A stretch of DNA of 38,310 bases, taken from positions 1-38,310 of the forward strand of contig CALENB010000559.1 of NCBI GenBank assembly GCA_937910235.1. Reading direction: 5' to 3'. This stretch comes from an uncultured Myxococcales bacterium. GTDB lineage: Bacteria > Myxococcota_A > UBA9042. The position numbers and the translations under genes were made by a program. This document shows positions 1,232 through 5,825 of the stretch, in pieces. Below the pieces are notes generated by a model. The model did not search any database. It was not told the origin of the DNA and was given only the letters and a program-made list of their open reading frames with translations. Position 1 is the first letter of the stretch; every line of letters starts with the position of its first letter.

Positions 1232-3709
1232 CTAGTCTCGGCGTTCCCATTCATCAGGGAAATCACCAGCCTCCCACAGATCCTCAAGCACGCTGGTTGG
1301 ATCGGCGAGCTCATCGATCTCGTCCACAATAAACGCGTCGCCGTGGTCGTCTTCCAGCAGGTCAGGATCGATCTTGCCGCGCGCTTCCGTACGGATTCGG
1401 TCCTGCTCTTTTCGATACTTGCGCCGCTCCTTGGTGATGTCGGCTTTGTTCATCTTGGTGAAGACTTTACCTTGGGTCCGCGTCGTCTCGAACGTGATCC
1501 ACTGCAGAAAATGGATCGGATGGAAGTGGTACAGCACCCCGTCCCAAGTGTCGCCAAACTGCAGATCGATGTGTTTGGCGACCTCTTCCGTCAACCAGAC
1601 GAACGGCGTGAAACGCTGAATTTCCCGGGCGAATAGCGTCTTCAACAGATTGTTTTGGCTGTCCTGGAGCAGCTCCCGTTCGATGGCCTTGCCGACATCC
1701 TTGCCCTCCTGCGCCCCCGCTAGCACGCGATACCAGTCGACCTGGTCGCTCCACTCGCTCACGTGCCGCGTGATGCCCTTGCGCAGACGTCGCTTCAGTC
1801 GGTCCGCCTCTGGTCCGCCGTCCTCGTAGAACTCCCTGATCGTCGCCGCTTCGACACGTCGGTCCTCCGACAAAAAGTCGCCGCGTAGGACACGACTACG
1901 TTCGTCATCGTCTTGCAGCACGACGGCCCACACGTCGTCCGTGTCGATTTGCAGCGTCGGATTCGGGTCGGGGTCGTATTCAAGCCAGTGCGCGCCGTGC
2001 TGACCCACGAGGTCAACAGCGTCCCGCCAGCGGCCATCGGCGAAGATCTCGACGTGCACCGTACCTTCGCAGGATTCACCGCCGACACCGAGCAGCGGGC
2101 CGGCGTGGCCGAGGACCTTTCCGGCCTTGACGAGGATGGCTTCGGCGCCAGACCGCTCGAATAATGCGACATTCGCGCCACGCAACGCTGTGACGCCGTT
2201 GCCAACGGAGTTCGTCACGCGCGTCACATCGGCGTCGGCACACCCGACTGCGTCCTCGTCGGTCACCGGGCCGTCGATCTCACCGTCCTCGTCGTCGGCG
2301 TCTTCGTCGGTGTCGTCGCTGTCGTCATCGCGGCTGTCTTTGGCGACCTTCTTCTTCGCCTTCTTGTCCTTCTTCTTCTTGTCCTTCTTGCCCTTCTTGC
2401 CCTTCTTGCCCTTCTTGCCCTTCTTCTTCTTGCGGCCCTTGCCGTCGTCGTCCTCGTCTTCTTCTTCGGGGATCTCCTCTTCGCCCTTGTCGACCTTCGT
2501 CAACGTCGCGAACCACTCTGGCATCTGCGCCAAGTTGCCAGGGAGCACCTTCTTCTTCACTGACTCCGGGTCCATCGCGAAGCGCTGCAAGTGCATGTAG
2601 AGGGAGTAGAAGACGAACGTTCGCTCCTTGTCCTCGCGCGGATCAAAGTCGATCTCGTGCCTCAGGAGCACGAAGTTGTTGGAGCCCCCGCTGGGTACCG
2701 GGCCGTTGCGCGCGGCCACGACCGTGCCATCGAGCATCGCGCGCACGTCCGCGCCAGACCGGATCGGGAGGTGGATACCGCCGTGCCACGTCCCGTTCAG
2801 GCCGACCGGGAAGTAGCCGCCGGAGTCGTTGCCGACCTCGTTTCGCTTGAAGTACTGCGCCGCGAGGGTTTGAATCTCGCGCTTGTTGCGCCAGTTCGCG
2901 CGCGCTTGCTTGCGCGTCCACGTGACAGGAAAGGCGTTGCTGCGGCCTGTGAGTCCGCTGATGAGACGGCGCCAATCGAAGGCTGGACCCGGATCAGCCT
3001 TCTCTGGATTGACGTGCCAGTGACCGTATATGCCCACCTTCTCGGCGCGATTGCCACCATCCACATCCGGGATGAAGTGCGGCACAACCTCGCCGTCACT
3101 CGTCACCGGCACGGCGAGGTCGATCTTCGGGTACTGCTCCTTTAGCGTGCTGAGCAGGGCGATCAACGCCTCGTACTGTTCGTCGGTGTAGCCGTAGCTC
3201 ATCCACGGATGGCCCTGAATCTCCATCTGCTCGATCGGCCGCTCCCCCTGACCCTTCGGCGGATTGGAGGACTTCAAGTGATTGAAGAGCATGCAGTTCA
3301 TGTCGATGCCGATCGAACGATTGTTCCATGCGCCGGCATGCATCGTCAGGCTCGCGGTGTCGGCCCACTGGTAGATCGTGCCATCCCAATCGATGCCGAA
3401 GTGAGACGACAGCCCTCGGCTCAACAGCACGCGGTAGCAGACAGCCGAGGACTGCGTGATATCCGCGTGGATGATCACCATGTCGACGACTTCACGCACC
3501 GGCCCTGCGTCGCGCGTCCGAACGATGCCCTTGTCGGTCTTGATCTTGCGAGGTCGTGTCAGCTCACGGCCGCTTTCGGTGTTGAACTTGCTCTCGAAAC
3601 CGCTGCCGCCTTCCTGATAGTTCACGACCTTCACGTCAGGGATGAACACCTTCTCACCTGAGACGATAATGCTGCCGCCCTTGCCGACGTGCGTGCTGTT
3701 GCCGCTCAT
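1232..3709 (-). CDS. N-acetylmuramoyl-L-alanine amidase (AmpD/PGRP type) with split M23-like module
   Basis: This 825-residue protein appears to act on peptidoglycan. Residues 75-250 form an Amidase_2 domain. Candidate zinc ligands are H81 (VIIHAD), H230 (YGHWHVNPEKADP) and D239, with the family's HFGIDWDGTIYQ and HAGAWNNRSIGID segments. Residues 298-380 look like the first half of an M23/LytM fold (H309-x3-H313 where HxxxD is usual, then a G-V-V-A-A strand and FYSLYMHL). The second half (V-x-A-G-x-V-L-G, then TVHVEIF at 550-556 where HLHFE is usual) comes only after a very charged insert at about 407-487 (Glu/Asp, then Lys-Lys-Gly repeats, then Asp). Residues 560-825 are unassigned. No signal peptide is visible. 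The start at 3709 overlaps the vWA stop as ATGA. An upstream extension of the frame is rejected because it reads antisense-like sequence inside the vWA gene. Confidence 0.85.
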   Translation of the reverse strand: MSGNSTHVGKGGSIIVSGEKVFIPDVKVVNYQEGGSGFESKFNTESGRELTRPRKIKTDKGIVRTRDAGPVREVVDMVIIHADITQSSAVCYRVLLSRGLSSHFGIDWDGTIYQWADTASLTMHAGAWNNRSIGIDMNCMLFNHLKSSNPPKGQGERPIEQMEIQGHPWMSYGYTDEQYEALIALLSTLKEQYPKIDLAVPVTSDGEVVPHFIPDVDGGNRAEKVGIYGHWHVNPEKADPGPAFDWRRLISGLTGRSNAFPVTWTRKQARANWRNKREIQTLAAQYFKRNEVGNDSGGYFPVGLNGTWHGGIHLPIRSGADVRAMLDGTVVAARNGPVPSGGSNNFVLLRHEIDFDPREDKERTFVFYSLYMHLQRFAMDPESVKKKVLPGNLAQMPEWFATLTKVDKGEEEIPEEEDEDDDGKGRKKKKGKKGKKGKKGKKDKKKKDKKAKKKVAKDSRDDDSDDTDEDADDEDGEIDGPVTDEDAVGCADADVTRVTNSVGNGVTALRGANVALFERSGAEAILVKAGKVLGHAGPLLGVGGESCEGTVHVEIFADGRWRDAVDLVGQHGAHWLEYDPDPNPTLQIDTDDVWAVVLQDDDERSRVLRGDFLSEDRRVEAATIREFYEDGGPEADRLKRRLRKGITRHVSEWSDQVDWYRVLAGAQEGKDVGKAIERELLQDSQNNLLKTLFAREIQRFTPFVWLTEEVAKHIDLQFGDTWDGVLYHFHPIHFLQWITFETTRTQGKVFTKMNKADITKERRKYRKEQDRIRTEARGKIDPDLLEDDHGDAFIVDEIDELADPTSVLEDLWEAGDFPDEWERRD
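2383..2427. repeat. 9-bp tandem repeat encoding Lys-Lys-Gly units
   Basis: Four perfect copies of CCTTCTTGC (2383-2418) and one degenerate copy (2419-2427) lie inside the amidase gene. Read on the minus strand they encode KKG units in the centre of the charged insert. Neighbouring sequence is also a Lys/Asp/Glu homopolymer-like run. The unit length keeps the frame, so copy-number change would lengthen or shorten the linker without breaking the protein. Confidence 0.8.
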
Positions 3710-5430
3710 GTCTGCTCTCCACGTCGGAAGATCCGGCCTATCAGACGGAAGAAGAACCGCGCGATGAAGAAGAGGATGAGCAGGGTGATGAGCGCGGCGA
3801 TCACCAACAGCGCGACCCCGACGTAGACGTAGACCTGGTAGCCCATGGCGTCTTGCGCAGACACCGCGAGGTCCGTCACTCCGTCCACGATCGTCGCCTT
3901 GAGACCTTTGATCTCGGCGACCTGTACCTTCATCACCTTTGAGGTCTCGCTGATGTGCTTGCCCTTCTCCGTGACGCCGCGGACCTTGATGCGCAGACCA
4001 AGCTTGCCGTCGATCTCGTCCGGCTGCGGGTGGGTGAAGTCGATGACCACTTGGCCGAGCAGCTCGTTGCCTAGATCGCCGATTTTCTGGGCGAGCAGCG
4101 CCTCGTTCCGCGCTGTGCGGTACGTGCCTCCCGTTCGCTCCGACAACAAGCGCAGACGCTGCAGCTCGTCGCGTCGTGCCAAGCTGCCGATACCGAGGCT
4201 GAAGATCTTGATGTCCGCCGCCCGTGCCACTCCGAGCCACTTCACCGCTTTGGCGTGGAACATCGACTGCTCCAGCGTGATCCGGCGATCCAAGGCCTTC
4301 TTCAGGCAGGTTGTGTGATCCGCGCCGTTCGCGTCGCGGCATGGCGCCGGCGGTCGGCGTTTGCACAGCTCGATGTCGTCGAGGTAGCCATCGTGGCCAT
4401 CCGAGATCAGCACCAGGGCCTTCTGTTCGCCAGGGCGTCCATCCTGCAGCAAGATCCGTAGACCTTCGTCCATCGCCGACGTACGAAAGTCGAGCCGATC
4501 GCCCGCTTCTTCGTGTGCTTCGCGCTCTTGCATCGTGCGCTTGAGGTTCTTGGCCATCAGCGAGCCGTCACCAAACCCCTCAAGTCGATCGGTTGGAATG
4601 TCGCAGTAGCGGGTCGGGTCGTAGAAAGGTTTGCCGAGGTTGAACAGGCGCGGGAACTTGCCACGGAACGAGGTCATGGCCCGATCGCCGATGATATCGG
4701 CCAGCGCACCGGCGTCGGCCTGCAGTCCACAGAGATCGGTGCCCGGCTTGAACTCCTTGCCCTTCGGGCCAAGCGTGATCGCCTCCCCGCTGATCGCTGC
4801 CGCCCGAGCCTGCGCACACTTGGTGCGAATCGTCAGGCTCTCGATGTCTTGGAGCTCACTGCTGTAAGACGCTAATGAGACGGCGCTGCGGATTCGGTCG
4901 CTGTACCACAGCACATTGACCCGATCGGTCTTGCCAAACTGCTTGAGCAACAACGCCACCGCCTCCCGCAGCTGTGGGCCGAGGCTGCCGCGCTTCAGCG
5001 CCGGATGCTCGTGTCCCGCGACCACGATGACCGCCGCCGTACCGACCCCGGCCTTGCTCGCCGCCCAGAGCTTGCCTTCCCGGGCCTGTGGCGCTTCGAT
5101 GTCTTCGTTCTTGAGCAGCTTGCCCAGTTTGAAGGCGGCCAGCGGCGGTCCCGCTGTCGTCGTGCCGCTGCGCACCTCGAGGCTGCGAATCGCGTCCAGC
5201 TTGATGGGCCGCGTGCCCCGGCCAAGAATCGTCGCCAGGACCCGCACCTTTGGCCAAGCGCTCGTGTCGACCTGGTTGATCCTGACCTGCGGCAGGCGAA
5301 CGTTGGCCGGCCCCACGCTTTTGGCGTGCGCGGGAGTGGGGGCGAACGCAGCGGCTAGGCCGCAAGATAGGGCGACCAGCGCGACGCGTCGATAGGAGCC
5401 CCCGCGCTGTTGGCGTGCGCGCGTCCTCAT
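3706..5430 (-). CDS. membrane-anchored vWA-domain protein with degenerate MIDAS
   Basis: A 574-residue exported protein. Residues 1-36 are a signal peptide (Ala-rich, ending AHA). A von Willebrand A-like fold spans about 130-455: strand VIVVAG at 134-139, ALVLISDGHDG at 338-348, and IKIFSLGIG at 407-415. The normal DxSxS metal-binding loop is replaced by AGHEH at 138-142, although the later D344-G345 is present. There is a long insert between the first strand and the DG strand, with several Cys residues (205, 234, 276, 356, 364, 375). A transmembrane helix at about 531-561 followed by RRGEQT anchors the C-terminus, leaving the vWA domain in the periplasm. ATGA overlaps link it to the genes on both sides. 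The role is unknown; a scaffold or adhesion function is more likely than metal-dependent binding. Confidence 0.8.
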   Translation of the reverse strand: MRTRARQQRGGSYRRVALVALSCGLAAAFAPTPAHAKSVGPANVRLPQVRINQVDTSAWPKVRVLATILGRGTRPIKLDAIRSLEVRSGTTTAGPPLAAFKLGKLLKNEDIEAPQAREGKLWAASKAGVGTAAVIVVAGHEHPALKRGSLGPQLREAVALLLKQFGKTDRVNVLWYSDRIRSAVSLASYSSELQDIESLTIRTKCAQARAAAISGEAITLGPKGKEFKPGTDLCGLQADAGALADIIGDRAMTSFRGKFPRLFNLGKPFYDPTRYCDIPTDRLEGFGDGSLMAKNLKRTMQEREAHEEAGDRLDFRTSAMDEGLRILLQDGRPGEQKALVLISDGHDGYLDDIELCKRRPPAPCRDANGADHTTCLKKALDRRITLEQSMFHAKAVKWLGVARAADIKIFSLGIGSLARRDELQRLRLLSERTGGTYRTARNEALLAQKIGDLGNELLGQVVIDFTHPQPDEIDGKLGLRIKVRGVTEKGKHISETSKVMKVQVAEIKGLKATIVDGVTDLAVSAQDAMGYQVYVYVGVALLVIAALITLLILFFIARFFFRLIGRIFRRGEQT

Positions 5431-5825
5431 GCGCCGAACCGAAGCGCGGACACCGTGAGCGTGCCAACGCGCTGTTGGTCTTGCCAGCGGCCATCGGTCG
5501 TCATGGCCACGAGCTCAACGTCGTAATTGCCCGCAATCAGCTGGTCGTACGGATAGGGGAGCTCGACGCGGCGCTCTTCGCCCGGCGCTAGCGTGCACAC
5601 AGGCGCGACATGCACTGCGGCGCCGTGGCGCATGACGATGGTGACGTGGCAGGCGCCGCGCGCGTCGTCCCGCAAGCCGACGAGCAGCGGCAGGCCAGGA
5701 AAGAGCGGGGCGTTGTCGTCCCACGTCAGCATCGGGTGGGGCTGTGCGCTGGCGAGCCCGCCGATCGCGCCAGCAACCGCGCCCCCGGCCACCAGTTGCA
5801 GGAATGTGCGCCGTTCCATGGTCAT
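5427..5825 (-). CDS. small Tat-exported beta-sandwich protein
   Basis: A 132-residue protein. The N-terminus has a clear twin-arginine signal (ERRTFLQ followed by a Gly/Ala-rich hydrophobic stretch and ASA), so a folded protein would be exported through Tat. The mature part of about 105 residues alternates short beta-type strands (PLLVGLRD, CHVTIVMRHG, RRVELPYPY, NYDVELVAM, VGTLTVSAL), like an Ig-type or SoxY/SoxZ-like sandwich. No family is assigned with certainty. An in-frame ATG at 5819 is an equally possible start. Its stop overlaps the vWA start (ATGA), so it is translationally coupled with the vWA protein and the amidase. Confidence 0.75.
   Translation of the reverse strand: MTMERRTFLQLVAGGAVAGAIGGLASAQPHPMLTWDDNAPLFPGLPLLVGLRDDARGACHVTIVMRHGAAVHVAPVCTLAPGEERRVELPYPYDQLIAGNYDVELVAMTTDGRWQDQQRVGTLTVSALRFGA

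Follow-up and report, generated by a model that had tools for sequence, protein, structure and literature searches.

A conserved amidase-WHIX protein without signal peptide and its co-occurrence with an eCIS in uncultured Myxococcota

WHIX is a bipartite domain that was described in 2025 as T6SS-specific and that is sufficient for export by this system; a single AmpD-like amidase-WHIX protein (WP_044238255.1) is found among 4,434 (PMC12135965). When present on its own in the periplasm of E. coli, WHIX showed no toxicity, and the genes with a signal peptide that flank T6SS WHIX loci are thought to encode immunity proteins (PMC12135965). The N-terminal domain TseP-N of Aeromonas contains an HxxxH pattern and is a reported zinc-dependent amidase, whose activity is lowered upon mutation of those histidines (PMC11893102).

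The window analyzed here (the whole stretch of DNA under study, 38,310 nucleotides, from an uncultured Myxococcales bacterium) contains a locus between thiL and coaD in which a small gene with a twin-arginine (Tat) signal and a vWA/transmembrane gene precede an amidase-WHIX gene. The same gene order is seen again in relatives. The amidase-WHIX gene (1232..3709, minus strand), present in one copy in its own genome, encodes a protein of 825 aa with an Amidase_2 and a WHIX domain and without signal peptide, as deduced from its ORF, Pfam and profile comparison. The start codon, an ATG at position 3709, shares bases with the stop codon of the preceding gene (ATGA), and the ribosome-binding-like sequence GGAGAG is located about 8 nt before it. 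A longer, GTG-started ORF (1232-4366) was set aside as mechanical, since it falls within the vWA gene.

Searches recovered relatives from Myxococcales and related MAGs as well as from further classes of this phylum; 46 out of 53 related genomes gave a match (E ≤ 0.001), a few of these matches being amidase-only. To judge from these sequences, the amidase-WHIX proteins form an orthologous, single-copy family across the Myxococcota-type phylum; residue conservation was counted over 49 diverse full-length members. MAG CALGHC01 contains both a copy near-identical to that of the window and a 39 % identical homologue (L002 and L005), and may thus combine sequences from two species. A role in anti-phage defence was rejected, as PADLOC gave no match and the vertical, syntenic conservation speaks against a defence island. 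A phage origin was likewise rejected: a search of 50,697 phage records with the full protein gave no match, viral contigs match the M23 part only, and viral fold matches are mostly amidase or lysin proteins.

Domain organization of the amidase-WHIX protein

The Amidase_2 (AmpD-like) domain spans residues 75-242 (2984..3487, minus strand; Pfam E-value 1.2e-15) and is present in all 49 relatives. Its zinc triad (H81, H230, and D239), originally predicted to form an intact AmpD-type site, is indeed invariant (49/49). The position of D136 is always D or E and that of K237 always K or R (both 49/49); by position, these residues correspond to E116 and K162 of AmpD. In a PDB fold search AmpD-type amidases rank first, with AmpD, LysC, and AmiD as the closest folds to Amidase_2. 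A second Amidase_2 protein is encoded in the same genome. Paralogues from this Amidase_2 subfamily with amidase domains only are encoded at further loci (L057-L060, e.g., L059 6401-7462); some of their N-termini are lipoprotein-like, and one protein contains two tandem amidase domains.

The amidase is followed by the first WHIX region, which corresponds to the first half of an M23-like fold (residues 297-377; 2579..2821, minus strand; profile alignments and AlphaFold2) and carries the WHGGIH motif (residues 308-313; 2771..2788, minus strand) that matches, in the alignment of 49 sequences, the WHxxxH motif as defined for WHIX (PMC12135965). A variable spacer (residues 378-502; 2204..2578, minus strand), with a charged core at about 409-488 and predicted to be disordered from the alignment and AlphaFold2, separates it from the M23-like part of the second WHIX region (residues 503-572; 1994..2203, minus strand; alignments and AlphaFold2) with its V-H552-x-E554 motif. 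The Peptidase_M23 match in Pfam covers the first half (309-380) with an E-value of 7e-5, which is under the Pfam cut-off. When the family profile is compared to lysostaphin, both pieces align in register as one M23 domain, and the M23 hydrolase 9gy1 appears at rank 41 of the PDB fold search. AlphaFold2, run on the alignment of 49 sequences, reached an overall pLDDT of 73.9, the two halves lying mostly at about 85-95 and the greater part of 410-488 under 50; this run superseded a first one with 18 sequences, which was too weak (pLDDT 55).

The original prediction of an M23-like fold in two pieces is thus borne out by the lysostaphin alignment and by the confident modeling of both halves, and the altered zinc motifs that it described recur throughout the family. 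In the M23-like site H309 is found in 48, H373 in 49, and H552 in 46 of the 49 relatives. Residue 313 is His in every one of them and never the usual M23 Asp, and the first His of HxH (position 550) is lost in all 49, so that both motifs of a classical Peptidase M23 (HxxxD and HxH) are altered in 49/49. Because the altered residues are conserved across relatives, they do not represent random decay. The fold had further been described as split by an 80-residue charged insert. This description is right for the charged core and for the two halves around it, but the whole variable stretch is about 125 residues long here, and what had been overlooked is that it is the natural spacer of a bipartite WHIX. 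Since the spacer ranges from 31 to 153 aa among the 49 relatives, with length and charge differing by lineage, the charged insert is best read from the alignment as a lineage-specific expansion of a WHIX spacer common to all members.

The second WHIX region continues with a SEW...HFHPI part (residues 621-745; 1475..1849, minus strand; alignment and profile comparison), in which E652, W653, and P731 are conserved in 49/49 relatives. An hhalign comparison of the full-length family profile (A5) with a WHIX profile (A8), built from T6SS-locus proteins bearing WHIX marks, gave a probability of 99.8 % and an E-value of 1.6e-27, with 307 aligned columns between WHGG and FHP; the C-terminal profile by itself matches WHIX weakly (21 %), and the claim rests on the full-length comparison. 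The WHxxxH motif is present in 48 out of 49 relatives (WNxxxH in the remaining one), a second region follows after a variable spacer, and the fused peptidoglycan-targeting enzyme, Amidase_2, is never missing (49/49). As sole query, the C-terminal region retrieved no Pfam or PDB family and, against plasmids, nothing, whereas a distant full-length relative did match there; a weak Vpr match of this region (E 0.6) was dismissed as chance. When a distant member was used as tblastn query, Proteobacterial records gave matches to proteins in their M23 part. Several of these proteins belong to T6SS loci, where they follow hcp-tssH-vgrG in Pantoea and Lelliottia and adjoin VgrG/PAAR in Caballeronia; they share the WHxxxH, YMHL, xxHFE, and SEW...FHP marks with the family and likewise have a variable spacer. 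At the level of sequence we regard the identity of the two M23-like halves and the following SEW...HFHPI region as WHIX, the bipartite WHxxxH domain, as solid. The region after the second M23-like half (about 600-745), which the original prediction missed, belongs to this domain as well. WHIX may serve here for docking on the spike alone, or it may contribute a zinc-amidase activity of its own. On the original suggestion that the M23-like fold binds peptidoglycan without cutting it, the published findings point both ways: TseP-N, which has the same HxxxH pattern, is a reported amidase, whereas WHIX by itself was reported as non-toxic.

Two loci met in these searches deserve mention. In Caballeronia (L156 6965-9193) the WHIX gene is annotated as three separate ORFs, has VgrG and a pair of PAAR genes as neighbors, and is probably a broken copy. 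On the E. coli plasmid pRHB39-C14_4 (6.7 kb; L159 2462-5125), the gene for a WHIX-like protein precedes a small gene with a signal peptide, a pair that looks like a plasmid-borne effector with its immunity.

Partner genes and the missing export signal

The vWA partner (3706..5430, minus strand) has a signal peptide, a vWA-like domain without DxSxS, a C-terminal transmembrane helix (about 3760-3816), and a basic cytosolic tail. Where a vWA gene was found, it lies at most 60 nt from the amidase-WHIX gene in 41 out of 45 relatives, and the DxSxS metal site is almost never present in these partners. In other classes the vWA partners (L101, L094, and L110) end in a C-terminal FHA domain (E-values between 1e-13 and 6e-18); elsewhere there are weak zinc-ribbon matches, with a weak double-zinc-ribbon in L103. 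An FHA domain or zinc-ribbon at this end fits the cytosolic tail of the vWA partner. We take the combination of FHA and vWA to be reminiscent of the phospho-regulation of T6SS. The small partner (5427..5825, minus strand) has a twin-arginine (RRTFL) signal. About 30 modules, from several classes, have a small protein with such a signal. The small proteins usually terminate in a motif of the aromatic-F-G/S-A/C type. No small Tat gene was found beside the modules of families f36, f38, and f58. In part of family f1 (L017 4547-7825, L019 3184-6428), two extra genes are located between the vWA and amidase-WHIX genes.

These two signals agree with the periplasmic partners that had been predicted. 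The lack of an export signal on the amidase-WHIX protein itself, also noted originally, is confirmed: none of the 49 relatives has a signal peptide. Within their first 45 aa, the most hydrophobic 12-residue stretch has a median hydropathy of 0.9 and reaches 1.7 at most, compared to 2.3-3.1 in the vWA partners. Given their conservation and the cytosolic FHA/zinc tails, we consider a docking or regulatory role of the vWA and small partners to be at least as likely as immunity.

A protein without signal peptide next to a Tat substrate might also be a hitchhiker. The amidase-WHIX protein would then fold in the cytoplasm and be exported bound to the small Tat protein encoded two genes upstream, to join the membrane-bound vWA protein in its own periplasm in a complex that remodels the wall. 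The precedent is established for HybOC and PaoABC (PMC4273604), and both the recurrence of the twin-arginine signal and the presence of TatC in 49 out of 53 relatives agree with it. Nevertheless, we find this route unlikely, as the amidase is still signal-less in the f36, f38, and f58 modules without adjacent Tat gene, four module-positive genomes gave no TatC match, and both the WHIX homology and the co-occurrence with eCIS would be left unexplained.

Co-occurrence with eCIS

No TssB (PF05591), on which the presence of a T6SS was judged, was found in the own genome, which is 100 % complete. One of its contigs (C176; L118) harbors a cluster of eCIS type, in which two sheath genes are accompanied by tube, LysM, baseplate, and ATPase-like genes, the roles other than sheath being read from sequence. 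The shorter sheath has about 390 aa, and its counterparts throughout the class are 84-92 % identical to this own copy; the second sheath is longer (about 590 aa). PAAR motifs in this genome are located on unrelated contigs. A Myxococcota eCIS, mostly in class UBA796, has been reported to be highly expressed in seawater (PMC11937823).

Co-occurrence was surveyed over 379 genomes for one eCIS sheath lineage, with p-values that ignore phylogeny. Within the class, the sheath is present in 40 out of 42 module-positive genomes versus two out of ten module-negative ones (p 2.5e-6). Outside the class, an unbiased C-terminal probe found both in 22 genomes, the module only in four, the sheath only in nine, and neither in 292 (p 3e-23), i.e., the module in 22/31 sheath-positive and 4/296 sheath-negative genomes; this probe missed divergent members (family f30), which makes the module-negative count outside the class an upper limit. 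Follow-up revealed the full protein in seven of the nine sheath-only genomes, raising the count to 29 out of 31 sheath-positive genomes. At the family level the counts are 15/3/1/41, where the total of 60 families is an estimate from the labels seen. Within family f5 both are present in ten genomes and neither in three (p 0.0035), and family f8 lacks both (module 0/4, sheath 0/4), which argues for repeated joint loss. Discordant genomes are G022, G193, and G336 (module without sheath) and G299 and G198 (sheath without module). As module and eCIS are largely inherited vertically, part of the correlation reflects shared ancestry. TatC gave no comparable correlation.

Delivery by contractile injection or type VI loading, originally put forward as a guess, thus gains two independent supports, WHIX homology and eCIS sheath co-occurrence. 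Injection-system genes lie near several of the Proteobacterial WHIX proteins. The module was never within 20 kb of the eCIS cluster in the loci examined, and none of these loci contains both the amidase family and the sheath.

We put the probability at roughly 60 % that the amidase-WHIX protein is a cargo or tip-loaded wall opener of the eCIS and that the flanking genes encode its membrane and periplasmic partners. The protein would stay in the cytoplasm, having no signal peptide, and WHIX would serve to load it on a contractile injection system, which in this case is an eCIS and not a T6SS. Firing would carry the amidase across the membranes of a presumed target cell to the peptidoglycan, where Amidase_2 is predicted to cut the MurNAc-L-Ala bond. 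The vWA/transmembrane protein and the Tat-exported small protein may provide a docking or firing platform or may protect the producer's own wall. Loading on the eCIS is favored by the WHIX homology, by the missing signal on a protein whose neighbors have one, by the co-occurrence, and by the absence of TssB. Points against cargo are the lack of linkage to the eCIS cluster, the discordant genomes, and the fact that WHIX effectors are typically polymorphic and accompanied by immunity genes, while this family is single-copy and conserved. More tentatively, WHIX could be a general loading domain of contractile machines rather than one specific to T6SS, with the Tat, vWA, and amidase-WHIX proteins forming an unlinked device for docking and for opening the wall, by which predatory Myxococcota would fire an eCIS assembled in the cytoplasm through the envelope.

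eCIS particles assemble in the cytoplasm, and the amidase could instead accumulate there and open the producer's own wall to free them, with the vWA protein as regulator and without being cargo. Such a lysis or release module would be consistent with the co-occurrence and with the single-copy, non-polymorphic conservation, yet no holin-like exit from the cytoplasm was identified and the WHIX homology suggests spike loading, which renders it improbable. Cytoplasmic recycling, in which an AmpD-like amidase acts on imported muropeptides and the remainder of the protein is regulatory, was also raised originally and agrees with the missing signal peptide and the proximity to AmpD, LysC, and AmiD, but it is very improbable given that the M23-like fold and C-terminal region constitute an injection-machine domain, that the conserved partners are periplasmic (one of them a periplasm-facing membrane protein), that a second Amidase_2 protein is available in the genome, and that the amidase-only paralogues are lipoprotein-like.

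Comparison with known systems

Should loading on the eCIS be correct, the WHIX principle would extend from T6SS to another class of contractile machine, uncultured Myxococcota would gain a wall-cutting candidate eCIS cargo with candidate membrane partners, and the question of how eCIS particles cross or open the cell wall would become directly testable. In the literature searched we found no description of an orthologous single-copy amidase-WHIX family tied to eCIS. The domain and the type of hydrolase are known; what is new is their context, a family of single-copy orthologues whose phylogenetic profile links it to eCIS instead of T6SS.

The closest systems are the T6SS effectors of WHIX subclass II (Fridman et al., 2025, PMC12135965), which share the bipartite WHxxxH domain with variable spacer, the N-terminal hydrolase, and an effector without signal peptide whose neighbors have export signals. 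The family described here differs by the lack of detectable TssB (own genome), its orthologous single-copy presence across the phylum, the eCIS co-occurrence, the conserved vWA (and usually also Tat) partners, and the absence of a C-terminal hydrolase. TseP-N of Aeromonas dhakensis is T6SS-delivered and has an HxxxH motif (H19, H23) in an M23-like zinc site that was superposed on 3SLU (PMC11893102). Its residue pattern fits H309, H313, H373, and H552 here, a mapping made by pattern and not by alignment; unlike in our protein, a lysozyme domain follows and an immunity protein (TsiP) inhibits it. The degenerate LytM/M23 amidase activators EnvC, NlpD, and ActS likewise show an altered M23 fold tied to amidases. 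These activators are exported proteins that work in trans, with enzymes of the Amidase_3 type as their targets, whereas the fold described here is part of WHIX, is cis-fused to Amidase_2, and has kept its conserved histidines. As to the vWA partner, a functional model is CisA of the cytoplasmic CIS of Streptomyces, a bitopic membrane protein required for firing (PMC12237407). The likeness is a functional one; CisA is encoded within the CIS gene cluster and the vWA gene outside of it.
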